The translations under genes were made by a program, and so were the position numbers. DNA of 64,000 nt from Devosia sp. A16 (GTDB taxonomy: Bacteria; Pseudomonadota; Alphaproteobacteria; Rhizobiales; Devosiaceae): contig NZ_CP012945.1 in the NCBI RefSeq assembly GCF_001402915.1, forward strand, positions 248,001 to 312,000, read 5' to 3'. A model generated the notes under the pieces. The model was given only the letters and a program-made list of their open reading frames with translations. It had not been told where the DNA came from and ran no database searches. Below are positions 6,576 to 12,925 of this stretch, piece by piece. How positions within the stretch are numbered: the stretch's first letter is position 1; each line of letters opens with the position of its first letter.

Positions 6576-7538
6576 GTGGAGCGTAAGGTGCACGCCAAAG
6601 TCGTCATCATCGGATCGGGTCCGGCCGGCTATACGGCGGCCATCTATGCGGCGCGCGCCATGCTCGAGCCGGTCATGATTTCCGGCATCCAGCCGGGTGG
6701 TCAGCTCACCATCACCACCGATGTCGAGAACTATCCCGGCTTCGCCGACGTCATCCAGGGCCCCTGGCTGATGGAGCAGATGAAGGCGCAGGCCGAGCAT
6801 GTCGGCACCCGGATGATCAACGACATCATCGTCGAAGTGGATTTCGACAAGCGGCCATTCGTCCTTATCGGCGACGGCGGCACCCGCTATACCGCCGACT
6901 CCGTGATCATTGCCACCGGCGCCCAGGCGCGCTGGCTGGGGCTCGAGTCCGAGGAGAAATTCCAGGGCTTCGGCGTTTCGGCCTGCGCTACCTGCGACGG
7001 CTTCTTCTATCGCGGCAAGGAAGTGATCGTGGTCGGCGGCGGCAACACCGCCGTGGAGGAAGCGCTGTTCCTCACCAATTTCGCATCAAAGGTCACGGTC
7101 GTGCACCGGCGCGGCGAGTTCCGCGCCGAGCGCATCCTACAGGAACGCCTGTTCAAGAACCCCAAGGTCGAGGTGATCTGGAACGCCGAGATCGAGGAAG
7201 TGTTCGGCCAGAACATGCCGCGCTCGGTTCAGGGGGTGAAGATCCGCGACACCAAGACCGGCCATGTCACTGAGAAAACCGTGGACGGCGTGTTCATCGC
7301 CATCGGCCACTCCCCCGCCACCTCGATCTTCTCGGGCAAGCTCGACATGAAGCCGGGCGGTTACCTGAAGGTCGTGCCGGGCGGCACGGCGACTAATGTG
7401 CCGGGCGTGTTCGCCGCCGGCGACGTCACCGACGACGTCTACCGGCAGGCGGTAACGGCGGCCGGGATGGGGTGCATGGCGGCGCTGGACGCCGAGGAAT
7501 ATCTGGCATCGCTCGAGCTTGCAGAAGCGGCGGAATAG
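6576..7538 (+). CDS. trxB: Thioredoxin-disulfide reductase
   Basis: A 320-residue FAD/NADPH flavoenzyme that reduces thioredoxin. The FAD-binding GSGPAGYTAAIYAARA lies near the N-terminus, the redox pair is CATC at residues 137-140, the NADPH-binding motif is VGGGNTAVEEAL, and the C-terminal FAD motif is GVFAAGDV. The start is either GTG 6576 or GTG 6591, both preceded by weak purine stretches. lsrB follows after three bases, an arrangement also known in Sinorhizobium and other Rhizobiales. This supports a shared redox-stress transcription unit. Confidence 0.95.
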   Translation: MERKVHAKVVIIGSGPAGYTAAIYAARAMLEPVMISGIQPGGQLTITTDVENYPGFADVIQGPWLMEQMKAQAEHVGTRMINDIIVEVDFDKRPFVLIGDGGTRYTADSVIIATGAQARWLGLESEEKFQGFGVSACATCDGFFYRGKEVIVVGGGNTAVEEALFLTNFASKVTVVHRRGEFRAERILQERLFKNPKVEVIWNAEIEEVFGQNMPRSVQGVKIRDTKTGHVTEKTVDGVFIAIGHSPATSIFSGKLDMKPGGYLKVVPGGTATNVPGVFAAGDVTDDVYRQAVTAAGMGCMAALDAEEYLASLELAEAAE

Positions 7539-7541
7539 TCG

Positions 7542-8435
7542 ATGCTGGATTGGGACAAGCTCCGCATCTTCCACACCGCCGCCGAATCCGGGTCGTTCAC
7601 CCACGCCGCTGAAAAGCTCAACATGAGCCAGTCTGCCGTTTCGCGGCAGATTTCGGCGCTGGAAGAGGATCTGGGGCTAAAGCTCTTCATCCGCCACGCC
7701 CGCGGCCTGGTCTTGACCGAGGTGGGCGAGCAGCTGTTCCGCACCGCCCATCGCATGCACTGGGAGTTGCAGCAGGTCGAGACCCAGATGTCCGAGAGCC
7801 AGGAGGTCCCGACCGGCCCCCTGCTCGTTACCACCACGGTGGGTATCGGCTCGACCTGGCTGAGCTCGCGCATCCATGAGTTCCTGATCCTTTATCCGGA
7901 AATCCAGATCGAGATTAAGCTCAACGATGCCGAGCTCGATCTCGCCATGCGCGAGGCCGACGTCGCCATCCGGCTGCACCGGCCGAACCAGTCCGAGATG
8001 ATCCAGCGCAAGCTGTTCACCGTGCACAATCACTTCTACGCCTCGGACAACTACCTCAAGGAATTCGGCTCGCCGCAGGCGGTCGAAGATCTCGACAGCC
8101 ACCGCATCATCTCGTTCGGCGAACCGGTGCCGTCCTATCTGGGCGATATCAACTATCTCGAGCGCCTCGGCCGCCCCGATTCCTCGCCGCGCCGCGCCTC
8201 GATGAAGGTCAACGCCATCTATGGCATGATGCAGGCCGCCCGGGCCGGTATCGGTATCGCCATGCTGCCCGATTATGTCACCGAGGGCGAGAGCAACCTG
8301 GTGCGGGTACTCGAAGGCATCGAGTTGCCGGCCTATGAGGCTTATTTCGTCTATCCCCCGGCGCTGAAGAATTCGAAGCGCGTCGGCGTGTTCCGCGACT
8401 TTCTCGTCGGCAAGGCCCGGGAGTGGTCGTTCTAG
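7542..8435 (+). CDS. lsrB: LysR-family regulator, LsrB/VtlR type
   Basis: A 297-residue LysR regulator. The N-terminal winged HTH (LRIFHTAAESGSFTHAAEKL, SQSAVSRQISALEEDLG, residues about 6-47) is followed by the periplasmic-binding-like effector domain from about residue 93. The start MLDWDKLRIFHTAAESGS and the position three bases after trxB are hallmarks of the LsrB (Sinorhizobium) / VtlR (Agrobacterium, Brucella) group. That group controls redox homeostasis, envelope polysaccharide and small RNAs. The symbol rests on synteny and family resemblance, so the regulon here is inferred. Confidence 0.85.
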   Translation: MLDWDKLRIFHTAAESGSFTHAAEKLNMSQSAVSRQISALEEDLGLKLFIRHARGLVLTEVGEQLFRTAHRMHWELQQVETQMSESQEVPTGPLLVTTTVGIGSTWLSSRIHEFLILYPEIQIEIKLNDAELDLAMREADVAIRLHRPNQSEMIQRKLFTVHNHFYASDNYLKEFGSPQAVEDLDSHRIISFGEPVPSYLGDINYLERLGRPDSSPRRASMKVNAIYGMMQAARAGIGIAMLPDYVTEGESNLVRVLEGIELPAYEAYFVYPPALKNSKRVGVFRDFLVGKAREWSF

Positions 8436-8597: not shown

Positions 8598-9281
8598 TTA
8601 CCCCGGCCGCACCACCGTAAAAGTCAGTTCCCTGCGCACGACGAACCCCAGCTTCTCGTAGAGCGCTATCGCCGCTGCGTTCTCGGTCTTCACGTGCAGG
8701 AACGGCACCCGCCCCTCGGCGGCGATCAACGCCGAGACGTGAGCGACCAGCACCTTGGCCAACCCCCTGCCCCGGAATTCCGGCCAGGTGCAGACGGCGC
8801 TCACTTCGGTGAGCTGTCCGAGCCGCATCCGCTCGCCGGTCATCGCCATCAGGCGCCCATCGGCCGCGCGTAAGCCGAAATAGCGACCCATGCCGAGCGT
8901 GCCGGCCCGAAACGGCCCCGGTTCGGTTGCCGTCGCCAGCTCGAGTGCTTCTGCTGCATCCGACGCCGTCAGCGGCACGGGCATCAGTTCGGGCAGCGCC
9001 GGTGGGGCCTCGCAAACCATCTGGAACACCGGGACCGCCTGCAGCAGTTCCCAGTCGGCGGGCACTTCGACCTGCTGCGCCGACACCAGCCCGACTGCCT
9101 CGTCCGACGCCACCAGCGGGCGCAACTCGGCGAACGCCCCGGCATCGTAGCGCGCGAGACCGCCGATCGGCGACAGCTCGGTCCGGTAGCGCGCGGCGGC
9201 GCCGTTGCGCTGACCGAGCACTGCGTGGTGGGTAGTGAGGGCGTGCCATGCCGGATCGTCGAGCACGGAGAAGTCGGTCAT
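8598..9281 (-). CDS. GNAT-family N-acetyltransferase
   Basis: A 227-residue protein whose C-terminal half is a GNAT fold. Motif A reads EFRGRGLAKVLVAHVSALI (acetyl-CoA pyrophosphate loop R/Q-x-x-G-x-G/A), followed by FLHVKTENAAAIALYEKLGF, the motif B helix with the conserved Tyr. The N-terminal half (TEPGPFRAGTLGMGRYFGLR) may form a second degenerate GNAT-like unit. The frame opens seven codons earlier, but the ATG at 9281 has AAAGGA six bases upstream. Substrate unknown. It is convergent with lsrB across a repeat pair. Confidence 0.8.
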   Translation of the reverse strand: MTDFSVLDDPAWHALTTHHAVLGQRNGAAARYRTELSPIGGLARYDAGAFAELRPLVASDEAVGLVSAQQVEVPADWELLQAVPVFQMVCEAPPALPELMPVPLTASDAAEALELATATEPGPFRAGTLGMGRYFGLRAADGRLMAMTGERMRLGQLTEVSAVCTWPEFRGRGLAKVLVAHVSALIAAEGRVPFLHVKTENAAAIALYEKLGFVVRRELTFTVVRPG

Positions 9282-9399
9282 GGCAAAGTCCTTTGTATTC
9301 ACGGCATGGCTCTAGCACTGGCGCGGCCAAGGCCCAAGCCGCCATTCATCGGGAATTCAGGGGGTGCGGCTAGAAACGGGCAAACCTCGGGGATCCCTC

Positions 9400-9894
9400 A
9401 TGCTTCGCTTTGTCACCGCAGTCGCGCTCTGCCTCGCCGTCACGCCGTCGTTCGCCCAGATGGTCAGCATCAGTCCCGAACAGATCGGCCAGATCTTCTG
9501 CATCTCGCGGCTTGGCAACGACATGGCTCCGGTCGAGGGATTGCTGACCACCGAGCTGCGCGGCGCCATCGCCGAGGCGGAGACACGGAACGCTGCCCTT
9601 CAGCAGGCGCACCCCGACGAGAAGCCGCCGCTGGGCGATGGTATCCCCTGGCAGGCCTTTCCCGATTATGCGGCCGAGTGCAACGTCGGTGCAGTCGCGA
9701 TCGACGCCGACCGCGCTACGGTCGACATCGCCTATGGCTTCCCCGACTATCCAGATGCCAATTTCACCGATCACCTGGAGCTGATCCGCGTGGCGCAGCC
9801 GGACCTTCCCGAACCGCTCTGGCGCATCGAGAACCTCGGCTACGCCACTGAAGGCGACCTGCGCTCGGTGCTCGTCTCGGCCTTCGCCAACTAG
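9400..9894 (+). CDS. Small exported protein of unknown function
   Basis: A 164-residue protein with a clear signal peptide, MLRFVTAVALCLAVTPSFAQ, cleaved after SFA. The mature part is acidic and contains EQIGQIFCISRLGNDMAPVEGLLT and one further Cys in AAECNVGAV, which could form a disulfide. No family is recognised. The ATG at 9400 is chosen because it starts the signal sequence. It stands alone, divergent from the GNAT gene. Export to the periplasm is inferred from the signal only. Confidence 0.6.
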   Translation: MLRFVTAVALCLAVTPSFAQMVSISPEQIGQIFCISRLGNDMAPVEGLLTTELRGAIAEAETRNAALQQAHPDEKPPLGDGIPWQAFPDYAAECNVGAVAIDADRATVDIAYGFPDYPDANFTDHLELIRVAQPDLPEPLWRIENLGYATEGDLRSVLVSAFAN

Positions 9895-10148: not shown

Positions 10149-11135
10149 ATGCTGCGTGCCTATATTCGCGAAGGCGACCGCCTCGTTCCCACCGATTTCG
10201 ATCCCGCCTCCGAGGCCAAGCTTGCGGGCGCCGTCTGGTACAGCCTGACCGACCCGACGCGCGAGGAGGACAAGTTCGTCGAGTCCTGCCTCGGCATCGA
10301 CATTCCCACCCGCCGCGAGATGCAGGACATCGAACCCTCGGCCCGCCTCTACAGCGAAGACGGGGCCGAGTTCATGACCATCACCGCGCTGGTAGAGGAC
10401 GAGGCCGGCCAACCGGTCAAGACGCCGATCACCTTCGTGTTGCGCAACAACCAGCTGGTCACGGTGCGTTACGCCGACCCCAAGCCCTTCCGGCTCTACG
10501 AGCGGCTGGTGTCCCGTCCCACCACCGGCGAGTTCGGCGGCGAGCGGGTGATGATCGGGCTGCTCGAGTCCTTCATCGACCGGCTGGCGCAACTGCTCGA
10601 GAATGCCGGCGACGAGATCGACCAGATCTCGCGCGAGGTGTTCGGCAACAAGGTCAAGAAACCTACCCGCAAGGCGCATGACTTGCAGTCATTGATCGAA
10701 CGCATCGGCAAGAAGGGCGACACCCTGACGCTGGCCCGCGAAAGCCTGGTGTCGATCACCCGTGTCACCAGCTTCCACCAGACGCTCGGTAGCGTCGACA
10801 TCAAGACCACCAAGGAGCTGCGCCAGGGCCTCAAGACCCTGCAGCGCGACGCTGCTGCGCTGAGCGATCACGCCGCGTTCCTTTCGGCCAAGATCAATTT
10901 CCTGCTCGACGCGACGCTGGGGCTGATCAACCTCGAGCAGAACCAGATCATCAAGATCTTCTCGGTGGCCGCAGTGGTGTTCCTGCCGCCGACCCTGGTC
11001 GCGTCCATCTACGGCATGAACTTCCAGTTCATGCCCGAACTGAGCTGGCCGTTCGGCTATCCGTTTGCGCTGGGGCTCATGGTCCTGTCGGCCGTAGTCC
11101 CGTACCTGTTCTTCAAGCGCAGCGGCTGGCTTTGA
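10149..11135 (+). CDS. corA: CorA-family magnesium/metal channel
   Basis: A 328-residue pentameric inner-membrane Mg2+ channel. A long soluble N-terminal domain ends in the stalk helix (about residues 160-270). Two transmembrane helices follow, with the selectivity motif YGMNFQFMPEL at the end of TM1; the family GMN is intact. The C-terminus is the usual basic tail, FFKRSGWL. It may carry Mg2+, Co2+ or Ni2+. It lies alone on the plus strand. The stop codon sits in a small hairpin (11124-11143), followed directly by a 16-bp perfect palindrome (11145-11160) that may help end the transcript. Confidence 0.92.
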   Translation: MLRAYIREGDRLVPTDFDPASEAKLAGAVWYSLTDPTREEDKFVESCLGIDIPTRREMQDIEPSARLYSEDGAEFMTITALVEDEAGQPVKTPITFVLRNNQLVTVRYADPKPFRLYERLVSRPTTGEFGGERVMIGLLESFIDRLAQLLENAGDEIDQISREVFGNKVKKPTRKAHDLQSLIERIGKKGDTLTLARESLVSITRVTSFHQTLGSVDIKTTKELRQGLKTLQRDAAALSDHAAFLSAKINFLLDATLGLINLEQNQIIKIFSVAAVVFLPPTLVASIYGMNFQFMPELSWPFGYPFALGLMVLSAVVPYLFFKRSGWL

Positions 11136-11160
11136 GGCCAGCCGGATTCGGCGCCGAATC
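11124..11160 (+). terminator. Hairpin plus palindrome at the corA 3' end
   Basis: GGCTGGC (11124-11130) pairs with GCCAGCC (11137-11143) across the corA stop codon. GATTCGGCGCCGAATC (11145-11160) is a perfect palindrome. There is no T-run, so intrinsic termination is uncertain. Confidence 0.4.
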
Positions 11161-11310
11161 TGACAAAATACTGTCACAATCAAACACTTGGCGTCGCCGT
11201 CGGCTCGACGTGCGACGCCATGGCGCACGTCGAAAACTCCAATACACGAGCAAACTCATCGACTTAACAGCCATGCAAAAAACGCATGACCCCCATTCAC
11301 CACTGGTCGG

Positions 11311-11339
11311 TTGCTGGGTCGCCGCTCCCGCCATATATC
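11311..11339 (+). promoter_or_regulatory. Candidate promoter of small RNA A
   Basis: TTGCTG at 11311-11316 and TATATC at 11334-11339 have a 17-base spacer. Transcription would start near 11346, just ahead of the first CCUCC-loop hairpin. CCATATAT also fits loosely the -10 of heat-shock sigma (RpoH) promoters. Confidence 0.4.
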
Positions 11340-11345
11340 CCCGCT

Positions 11346-11462
11346 CGACAGCAGCTGAGCGCATCTCCCTCCTCCTCCTCGCGCTCGTTGTTTGTTCCTC
11401 CCTGTAGCCGGCAACGGCTGCTACTCGGCCCCGCTCTCCCCTCGAGCGGGGCCTTGTCTTTT
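11346..11462 (+). ncRNA. Small RNA A with anti-Shine-Dalgarno loop
   Basis: A predicted transcript of about 117 nt. Stem GAGCGC (11357-11362) / GCGCTC (11381-11386) exposes an 18-base loop containing CTCCCTCCTCCTCCT. A second CCTCCC follows in a linker (11397-11402). Next comes a GTAGCCG hairpin with a GCAA tetraloop (11404-11421). It ends in a 10-bp terminator stem (11427-11436 with 11444-11453) and TTGTCTTTT. The CCUCC core equals the anti-Shine-Dalgarno of 16S rRNA. The architecture matches the alphaproteobacterial cuckoo/CcsR class of RNAs with CCUCCUCCC loops. The 5' end is inferred. Confidence 0.75.
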
Positions 11463-11579
11463 CCGCCCCCAACAACCCGTGAACATCCGTCGCGCGCGGA
11501 TCGTATTGACGCATACGTCACGGCAGCATGGCTGACCTTTCCCTGCGCAAACTGCATAGCTGGCATGTGGAAGTCCGTA

Positions 11580-11608
11580 TTGTGGACCAAACGGTCAAAG
11601 TGCATATT
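11580..11608 (+). promoter_or_regulatory. Candidate promoter of small RNA B
   Basis: TTGTGG (11580-11585) and CATATT (11603-11608) are separated by 17 bases. Transcription would start near 11615, before the three repeated hairpins. Confidence 0.35.
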
Positions 11609-11614
11609 GTGAGT

Positions 11615-11808
11615 GTCGATGTGAGCCGCACCGTATCCTCCTCCCTCGGTCCTGCTCTGCGACACCGGTTCGAAGTCGTATCCTCCTCCCTCGACTTAGA
11701 ACCATCGGCAAATGGCGTATCCTCCTCCCTCGTCCATTTGCCACCACTTTCGATTTGGACTTCGGTCCTTGTCATTGGGCCCCATCTTCGGATGGGGCCT
11801 CTTTTTTT
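11615..11808 (+). ncRNA. Small RNA B with three identical CCUCCUCCC loops
   Basis: A predicted transcript of about 194 nt. The 13-base word TATCCTCCTCCCT occurs three times (11634-11646, 11679-11691, 11718-11730), each time as the loop of a different stem. The stems are ACCG/CGGT (11630-11633/11647-11650), AAGTCG/CGACTT (11673-11678/11692-11697) and GGCAAATGG/CCATTTGCC (11707-11715/11734-11742). Loops are conserved while stem sequences differ but still pair, which argues for selected RNA structure. A GGAC-TTCG-GTCC hairpin and a 9-bp UUCG-capped terminator (11778-11799) with seven T residues end it. Function by Shine-Dalgarno titration is inferred. Confidence 0.8.
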
Positions 11809-11875
11809 GCTTTGACTGATCTCTTGTCGCCAGTCGCTTCGCGCTCAGCGCATGGCTGACGTTCCGACTTGGCGA

Positions 11876-11904
11876 TTGTTCGGTTCGCCGCATCGCCCGA
11901 TAGT
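11876..11904 (+). promoter_or_regulatory. Candidate promoter of small RNA C
   Basis: TTGTTC (11876-11881) and GATAGT (11899-11904) have a 17-base spacer. The start would be near 11911, eight bases before the CCUCC-loop stem. Confidence 0.35.
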
Positions 11905-11910
11905 CATCTC

Positions 11911-12020
11911 AACGAATTGCAGCCGCTCCTCCTCCCTGGCTGCGCTTCGATTGGTCGCCCGCTTCGGCGAGCCGGCCTCTGAAGGCTCCGCTCATCCCCT
12001 CGAGCGGAGCCTTTTTCTTT
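11911..12020 (+). ncRNA. Small RNA C with anti-Shine-Dalgarno loop
   Basis: A predicted transcript of about 110 nt. Stem GCAGCC (11919-11924) / GGCTGC (11938-11943) exposes the loop GCTCCTCCTCCCT. A TCGCC/GGCGA hairpin (11955-11970) and a 12-bp terminator (11982-11993 with 12002-12013) followed by TTTTTCTTT complete it. The order of elements is the same as in RNA A. The two terminators share the inner sequence GCTC, a CCCCTC-type loop and GAGCGG, so A and C look like paralogues. Class assignment as for RNA A. Confidence 0.75.
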
Positions 12021-12082
12021 GAGCCTCCGGTTGCCCCTGTCGCCAGTCGGGCTAGTCTGTTCGCTCAACGCGAGGCCGGCTC

Positions 12083-12925
12083 ATGACACTTCCCATCATT
12101 TCTCTCGCCTCTGGCACTTCCGTGCCTGCCCTCGGCCAAGGCACCTGGCGCATGGGCGAAGACCGTCGACGCCACGCCGACGAGGTCACGGCGCTGCGCC
12201 GCGGCATCGAACTGGGCATGACATTGATCGATACCGCCGAGATGTATGGCGATGGCGGCGCCGAGTTGGTGGTCGCCGAGGCGATCAAGGGCCGCCGCAG
12301 CGAGGTGCAACTGGTCAGCAAGGTGCTGCCCGGCAATGCCAGCCGCAACGGCACAATTGCCGCCTGCCAGCGCAGCCTGAAACGGCTCGGCACCGACCAT
12401 ATCGATCTTTACCTCTTGCACTGGCGCGGCCGCCACCCGCTCGCCGAGACCGTCGCGGCCTTCGAAGACTTGCAGCGCGCCGGCGCCATCGGCGCATGGG
12501 GTGTCTCCAATTTCGATGTCGACGACATGGAAGAGTTACTGGCGCTCCCGGGCGGCGAGGCCTGCGCCGCCAACCAGGTGCTCTACAACCTTGCCGCCCG
12601 CGGCATCGAGTACGACCTGCTCGACTGGTCGGCTACACGCCAGATGCCAATCATGGCCTATTCCCCGCTCGGCAACGACAACCGCATGCTGCGCCACCCC
12701 GAACTGCAGCGCATCGCCAGGGCTCGAAACGCGACCGCCGCGCAGGTCGCCCTCGCCTTCGTGCTGGCCCGCCCGGGCATCATTGCCATCCCCAAGGCCA
12801 CCGGCCTCGAGCACGTCGCCGAGAACCGCATGGCGGCTGACCTGAGGCTGACCGCCGATGAGCACGCCGCGCTGGATGCGGCCTTTCCGCCGCCACGCCG
12901 CAAGCAGCAGTTGGAGATGATCTAA
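12083..12925 (+). CDS. Aldo/keto reductase
   Basis: A 280-residue NADPH-dependent (beta/alpha)8 oxidoreductase. The catalytic Asp and Tyr lie in [15 protein letters not shown] (about residues 48-62), the Lys in VQLVSKVLP, and the His in [10 protein letters not shown]. The cofactor end reads [16 protein letters not shown]. It resembles the 2,5-diketo-gluconate reductase-like branch that acts on small carbonyl compounds; the substrate is not predictable. The start codon lies 62 bases after the terminator of small RNA C, so it has its own transcription signals. Confidence 0.88.

Follow-up and report, generated by a model that had tools for sequence, protein, structure and literature searches.

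Predicted anti-Shine-Dalgarno small RNA units with LsrB-type boxes form a tandem array in the lsrB neighborhood of Devosia

The window analyzed here, a stretch of 64,000 nucleotides from a Devosia soil bacterium, contains a tandem array of three stand-alone units whose hairpins display open anti-Shine-Dalgarno loops. On the plus strand, the units are flanked by corA (10149-11135) on one side and an aldo/keto reductase gene (12083-12925) on the other; a trxB-lsrB gene pair precedes them at a distance of 2.9 kb. We consider it likely that the array specifies three independently transcribed trans-acting small RNAs, each activated by LsrB, whose open loops block ribosome-binding sites, and that mRNAs of ABC transporters are among the targets. 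The distinctive point is place, not the presence of three loops: an LsrB-boxed, alpha-r14-like array occupies the lsrB neighborhood of this family, where other families have AbcR. That neighborhood and the LsrB boxes are context absent from an earlier note on this DNA. The RNA class is a known one, and the arrangement may bring together two RNA families hitherto treated as distinct.

Unit 1 (11345-11462) has an AbcR-like layout consisting of a hairpin whose loop reads CCUCCUCCUCC, a single-stranded GUUCCUCCCUG, a second hairpin, and a terminator. Unit 2 (11614-11808) is alpha-r14-like and carries three identical 13-base loops ahead of its terminator. Unit 3 (11910-12020), the best ar14 match in the array, comprises a CCUCCUCCC hairpin, a second hairpin, and a terminator. 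Folding z-scores are -6.61, -6.85, and -5.68 for units 1, 2, and 3, respectively, and for each unit none of 200 shuffles folds as well. The earlier note had counted five hairpin loops with CCTCC cores in three units, and that number is right: five loops (1+3+1) bear CCUCCUCC, and their CCUCC cores have unpaired probabilities of 0.998-1.0. Specifically, the C/U-rich open loops are AUCUCCCUCCUCCUCCUC in unit 1 (11363-11380), UAUCCUCCUCCCU three times in unit 2 (11634-11646, 11679-11691, and 11718-11730), and CUCCUCCUCCC in unit 3 (11926-11936). Unit 1 has one further CCUCC, at 11397 within GUUCCUCCCUG, single-stranded between the hairpins (mean unpaired probability 0.965). In the 5.03-Mb genome, the array holds the only three copies of the 13-base loop TATCCTCCTCCCT, and the reversed control is absent. 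The bare motif CCTCCTCC is not rare on its own (seven copies in the window, a number reached in 8 of 100 shuffles); thus, clustering, stems, and conservation carry the weight. A T-tailed terminator per unit had also been claimed, and we find three intrinsic terminators, all on the plus strand (11427-11453, 11777-11800, and 11981-12014; 1.4 +/- 1.1 in shuffles of the region), with the loops UCCCCUC, UUCG, and AUCCCCUC in units 1, 2, and 3.

Promoter-like pairs with 17-base spacers can be read by eye upstream of all three units when the alphaproteobacterial form CTTGAC-N17-CTATAT, given in a part of PMC8844928, is used. The putative pairs lie at 11310-11338 for unit 1 (elements at 11310 and 11333), at 11579-11607 for unit 2 (11579 and 11602, based on sequence and conservation), and at 11875-11903 for unit 3 (11875 and 11898). 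The claim of 17-bp-spaced pairs thereby survives in the alphaproteobacterial form, weakly for the third, while a strict E. coli-type (sigma-70) scan of the region returned no promoter. Parts of PMC7486931, PMC8844928, and PMC10746234 give GCAT-N3-TG-N3-T as the VtlR/LsrB box, which spans -61 to -49 in PabcR1; the PnfeR1 form is TGCA-N6-GCAT. Unit 2 has two boxes of the first form within 11526-11566, GCATGGCTGACCT at 11526-11538 and GCATAGCTGGCAT at 11554-11566, the second of which is present in 24 of 25 unit-2 promoters; unit 3 has GCATGGCTGACGT at 11850-11862. The box region of unit 1 (11274-11296) combines TGCA-N6-GCAT at 11274-11287 (TGCAAAAAACGCAT) with a degenerate GCAT-N9 box at 11284-11296, in the same register as in units 2 and 3, but with CC replacing the TG of the box. 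The LsrB-type box of NfeR1 comprises TGCA-N6-GCAT and T-N11-A; when tested for, TGCA-N6-GCAT was found before unit 2 as well, at 11553. The boxes of the three units fall at approximately -60 to -48 from the predicted starts, the register published for PabcR1.

A matrix built from the 25 unit-2 boxes extends this pattern across the family. Scores of at least 8 bits were obtained for 59 of 71 units in 34 family genomes, versus 17 of 1090 control windows taken from the same loci; with the 25 training units set aside, 34 of 46 reach 8 bits and 12 fall below. Calling of units was automatic, and stray CTCCTCCC sites probably account for some of the misses. The 71 do not include the window's own unit 1 because its loop lacks CTCCTCCC. 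In most units the box lies 77-88 bases before the first loop. The pattern GCATRGCTGRCRT occurs five times in the genome (twice when reversed), and two of the five are in the array. Box-like sites outside the array were set aside: two are inside coding-looking DNA, and one precedes a gene judged by eye to be MASE1-like. This third site, G000:C1:4876605-4876617 (L098), is a perfect GCATGGCTGGCAT box on the minus strand before a gene for what looks, by eye, like a MASE1-type membrane signaling protein, possibly a further LsrB target. Finally, a box followed after 50-80 bases by CTCCTCC is present in 13 of 150 genomes of the order, namely, all five of the family and 8 of 145 others, with none for the reversed control; several of the eight outside matches may be due to chance or to coding sequence.

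The proposed activator is encoded by a LysR regulator gene of the lsrB/vtlR type (7542-8435, plus strand; LysR domains), adjoined by trxB (6576-7538, plus strand), which encodes thioredoxin-disulfide reductase (TIGR01292 above cut-off). We take the LysR gene to be LsrB/VtlR on synteny with genome G058 and Sinorhizobium meliloti rather than by comparison with a named sequence. G058, a member of another family, has an orthologue that is 55% identical, followed at 0.2-0.5 kb 3' by two ar15 (AbcR) matches of 127 and 119 bits; in S. meliloti, abcR1/abcR2 (alpha-r15) adjoin lsrB, as parts of PMC8844928 and PMC3712013 describe. An orthologue was found in 56 of 61 genomes, and trxB is beside it in 36 of 40 fetched loci. 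Three ORFs separate lsrB from the array in the window: an acetyltransferase gene (8598-9302, minus strand), an ORF without a family match (9364-9894), and corA. Wherever both share a contig (22 of 22 Devosiaceae genomes), the unit-2 match follows lsrB on its 3' side and on the same strand, at a distance of 197-4198 bases that is within 640 bases in five of them; this count leaves out 4 of the 26 unit-2 genomes, one (G014) giving no lsrB hit and three (G008, G013, G017) having the two on different contigs. Eleven family genomes have no unit-2 match. Eight of these (G019, G021, G022, G023, G029, G030, G034, G036) carry CCTCCTCC 3' of lsrB; G027 has lsrB and no CCTCCTCC sites in the 8 kb 3' of it, the contig of G025 ends after 134 bases, and G026 gave no lsrB hit.

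Selection on structure is evident in the sequences of relatives. Unit 2 gave DNA matches in 26 of 61 genomes: all 19 of the genus (the window's own included), 7 of 18 other family members, and none of 24 from other families. In the 27 aligned copies (two genomes contribute two each), loop bases are invariant or nearly so, and 24 of 38 stem pairs have one or more double changes. Pairing is retained in 94.1% of cells and falls to 47.8-49.1% when partners are shifted by one base; 101 cells hold double changes, compared with a shuffled mean of 31.6. Because this same alignment yielded the structure, and relatedness is not preserved in the shuffles, the figures are strong, not exact. Double changes affect 11 of 30 pairs in unit 3 (9 sequences) and 2 of 32 in unit 1 (10 close sequences), and the 5' stem of unit 1 is lost in a wider 16-sequence alignment. 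Compensatory change in relatives, named beforehand as a check, is therefore present in units 2 and 3, while unit 1 hardly varies; that the identical 13-base loops of unit 2 sit on differing, paired stems, as had been described, is borne out by folding and double changes alike. The exact pattern of the third hairpin was found in 18 stretches: 14 from Devosia, 1 from Arsenicitalea aurantiaca, 2 from Hyphomicrobiales MAGs, and 1 from a MAG labeled Bacillota. The last contig (L037, WQTL01000340.1), with its Devosia-type hairpin pattern, is probably mis-binned.

The notion is that LsrB (VtlR), encoded 2.9 kb upstream, would bind the box about 60 to 48 bases before each start and activate the unit in the manner seen at PabcR1 and PnfeR1. 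The hairpins would hold short C/U-rich anti-Shine-Dalgarno sequences open in their loops, and these would block translation by pairing with ribosome-binding sites of the AGGGAGGAG type; the silenced messages likely include mRNAs of ABC-type nutrient transporters. Transcription, LsrB binding, targets, and silencing are all presumed by analogy with NfeR1 and AbcR1/2 of Sinorhizobium. In S. meliloti, LsrB senses reactive oxygen species, according to a part of PMC8844928.

The pattern GGGAGGAG-N3-9-ATG occurs 12 times in the genome, versus twice for the reversed pattern. Nine of the 12 sites give ORFs of at least 80 aa, although for two of these (L148 and L150) the ATG used is probably not the real start. 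Five of the nine, four of them by Pfam, look like ABC-transporter parts: the substrate-binding proteins L142, L143, L144, and L145 (the last by a weak NCBIfam match) and the permease L149. By comparison, 64 SBP_bac_1 matches in the genome pass the cut-off. Among 15 matches to the control AAAGGAGA, 11 give ORFs, of which 1 is an ABC-transporter part (7 were Pfam-scanned and 4 judged by eye). The difference, 5 of 9 versus 1 of 11, yields a Fisher p of 0.05 in what is a small test. Three other genomes contain 63 matches (reversed, 15); the 30 examined give 23 ORFs, 6 of them ABC-transporter parts, and pooling over four genomes gives 11 of 32 (p = 0.14). The ORF L164 of G001 closely resembles the L144 binding protein in its first residues, and the site is common to both. 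The candidate targets thus agree, short of proof, with the practice of NfeR1 and AbcR.

Other readings of the array must be weighed against this one. The strong repetition of the loops, up to four in one unit of G033, and their near invariance on freely varying stems would also suit general decoys, in which many open anti-Shine-Dalgarno loops per cell titrate ribosomes or Shine-Dalgarno sites in general, slowing translation during stress instead of silencing particular mRNAs. We consider that unlikely: the loop UCCUCCUCCCU appears longer than the 16S core, and, as parts of PMC10746234 and PMC8844928 report, NfeR1 and AbcR pair with mRNA ribosome sites and lose particular targets when their loops are mutated. 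The earlier note had raised sponging of RNA-binding proteins, and a sponge for, e.g., a CcaF1-type DUF1127 protein is compatible with the structure data. In Rhodobacter, CcsR RNAs are made and matured with CcaF1 (PMC10253847, in part), and in G042, small ORFs that are DUF1127-like by eye are each followed by such hairpins. However, a DUF1127-like motif (a sequence motif, not a profile) is absent from the six frames of 11131-12085 and of the window, the present data lend sponging no support, and tested relatives pair with mRNA ribosome sites; we regard it as improbable.

The position of the array between corA and the reductase gene, with everything in one direction, could instead point to cis-acting leader or attenuator elements of the reductase or corA transcripts. 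Against this, each unit has its own terminator, the anti-Shine-Dalgarno sites stay with lsrB in the family, and corA was detected in four and the reductase in one of the 40 lsrB loci fetched (21 from the family), the fetched stretches being sometimes too short; we judge a cis-acting role very improbable. An ORF at 11528-11815 runs in frame through the three unit 2 loops and reads VSSSL three times, as might be expected of a protein-coding repeat, or else of mobile palindromic repeats, rather than RNA genes. Yet the ORF has no Pfam or NCBIfam match, and loop spacing keeps the VSSSL frame in 8 of 31 loop triples from 26 loci (some loci give more than one triple), so unit 2 is RNA rather than protein; the covariation, together with the confinement of the 13-base loop to one place in the window's own genome, leaves a coding or mobile repeat next to no likelihood. 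The coding reading of 11528-11815 was accordingly discarded, in keeping with the earlier view that the region has no credible protein gene.

In loci from other families of the order, the strict box pattern lies 3' of lsrB in 8 of 19, and 12 of 16 inspected by eye have a hairpin with a CCUCCC-type loop there, preceded in most cases by a GCAT/ATGC palindrome and followed in about seven by a UUCCCCUC-type stretch. G052, G054, and G057 have no such hairpin in the first 400 bases 3' of lsrB, and that of G045 lies beyond the stretch inspected. Sixteen Devosiaceae unit-1 sequences were made into a covariance model, which gave seven matches at E up to 1 over 184 kb of the 19 other-family loci: first the abcR pair of G058 (22.0 and 17.9 bits), followed by sites in G047, G045, G056, G055 (a 20-base partial match), and G041. 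Coordinates place all seven on the lsrB strand, 3' of that gene, and no match came from 184.6 kb of control loci. Within the window the model matches unit 3 at 39.9 bits and unit 2 at 29.9 bits, so that kinship among all three units appears likely. The model lacks the 5' stem because distant members align poorly; consequently, its hits in other families derive from sequence plus the second hairpin and terminator, and the E-values (0.009 to 0.13 for five of the seven) are rough. It also scores ar14-type loci (L099 of G058 at 16.4 bits, L100 of G050 at 11.7, and L102 of G052 at 11.1) and so does not cleanly separate the ar14 and ar15 families. At L140 (G054) it scores both strands (19.5 and 18.9 bits), which suggests that a large part of the score can come from terminator-like hairpins by themselves. 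The ar15 model, in return, does not recognize the Devosia units. Unit 1 appears to lean to AbcR and the later units to NfeR1.

We speculate that alpha-r14 (NfeR1/cuckoo) and alpha-r15 (AbcR), described as two families, are the ends of one LsrB-driven lineage. In Devosiaceae, an ancestral lsrB-abcR locus would have grown by tandem duplication, with the first unit AbcR-like and the later ones alpha-r14-like, and the number of loops per unit (one to four) and of units would vary between genera as a control on anti-Shine-Dalgarno dose. We offer this tentatively, giving it somewhat less than an even chance. The array also suggests a way, open to testing, in which AbcR1 and NfeR1, both LsrB-activated in Sinorhizobium, could have arisen from one locus. 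The linkage of the regulator gene with LsrB-boxed anti-Shine-Dalgarno RNA units runs through a family other than the Rhizobiaceae and Brucellaceae, the families given for alpha-r15 in a part of PMC3712013, and the natural variation from one to four loops per RNA provides material for measuring the effect of loop number. As a separate observation, the first 100-500 bases 3' of lsrB in L066-L083 hold AbcR-like units in several Hyphomicrobiales families, missed by or below the cut-off of the Rfam ar15 model, which appears too narrow.

Rfam at gathering thresholds returned no match over the window, and no unit there reaches any cut-off (58.8 bits for ar14, RF02344; 65.3 bits for CcsR1, RF02791). 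At relaxed thresholds, ar14 scores unit 3 at 45.0 bits (E 7.5e-7), unit 2 at 35.7, and unit 1 at 17.4, all below the cut-off; the best CcsR score in the array is 26.1 bits, for unit 2 against CcsR1; and ar15 (RF02345) has no match in 11130-12090 at E up to 5. One of 20 family and other loci scanned at cut-off passes, the sister array of G033 (Devosiaceae; ar14, 62.2 bits). Over 61 genomes, ar14 matches 42 at E up to 0.1, 3 of them over the cut-off, and ar15 matches 7, with G058 alone over the cut-off; each search also matches, below cut-off, in 1 of 14 control genomes. The densest array among the loci examined is that of L029 (G033:C2, 863-1560), with one four-loop unit, including a CCTCCTCCCC loop in the terminator hairpin, plus neighboring units. 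A third ar14 match in the window's own genome, C1:950177-950306 (32.0 bits), was rejected since it consists of intergenic stem-loops in an ABC-transporter operon without CCUCCUCCC. There, in L129 (G000:C1:949000-951500), positions 1178-1307 hold paired stem-loops between the substrate-binding-protein and permease genes, and similar sites are visible by eye in three other genomes of the genus (L130, L131, and L132). The earlier assignment to a cuckoo/CcsR-like anti-Shine-Dalgarno class was sound, and units 2 and 3 more precisely resemble alpha-r14 (NfeR1). Reinkensmeier and Giegerich reportedly described cuckoo RNA in 2015. Concerning Devosia, none of the literature matches listed deals with AbcR- or NfeR1-type RNAs, and one Devosia paper (PMC10799531) mentions sRNA once.

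The CcsR1-4 RNAs of Rhodobacter sphaeroides (RF02791) are like the array in their tandem CCUCCUCCC hairpins and in forming several RNAs in a row. A DUF1127 gene at the head of the transcript is the hallmark of the CcsR (CIN1) locus. The CcsR RNAs are processed out of a single RpoH-driven transcript that also includes the DUF1127 gene ccaF1 (PMC10253847, in part), whereas the array has separate promoter-like pairs and terminators and no DUF1127-like motif. A locus in another family of the order, L135 (G042:C130:30500-34000), has at about 1000-2300 three tandem small ORFs, DUF1127-like by eye, with a GCAT/ATGC-rich stretch upstream; each is followed by a CCTCCTCC hairpin and a CTCCC-loop terminator, which looks like the DUF1127-CcsR (CIN1) arrangement. 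With alpha-r14/NfeR1 (cuckoo RNA family; SmelA075/SmelA099), the array shares CCUCCUCCC loops on differing stems, a promoter-like pair for each unit, an upstream LsrB-type box, and a layout as independent transcription units. Parts of PMC10746234 describe alpha-r14 with three CCUCCUCCC loops on different stems, and parts of PMC3927594 report that three-loop and four-loop models were proposed as one family in 2011. Unit 2, with three hairpins, identical unpaired CCUCCUCCC, and divergent stems, has this trait, and units 1 and 3 have one such hairpin each; three loops being normal for alpha-r14 and four-loop members being known, unit 2 is not the unusual member it had been thought to be. The array differs from alpha-r14 in scoring below the Rfam cut-off and in having three units in tandem. 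Moreover, the terminator hairpin of the ar14 model carries the third CCUCC, whereas in unit 2 the third loop has its own hairpin and the terminator loop has no CCUCC. The array is also near lsrB, while the over-cut-off ar14 matches of G058 and G050 are on contigs other than that of lsrB. From alpha-r15/AbcR1-AbcR2 (RF02345), the array differs in lacking an ar15 match, in having three units rather than two, of which units 2 and 3 are ar14-like, and in its distance of 2.9 kb and three ORFs from lsrB. AbcR RNAs have a 5' hairpin with aSD1, an unpaired aSD2, an A/U stretch for Hfq binding, and a terminator; judged by eye, unit 1 seems to follow that layout, with an anti-Shine-Dalgarno loop, a second hairpin after single-stranded UUCC, and a terminator. 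The array further resembles alpha-r15 in being a tandem set of predicted small RNA genes near lsrB with the LsrB box at the same register, and in the ABC-transporter mRNAs that are its predicted targets.
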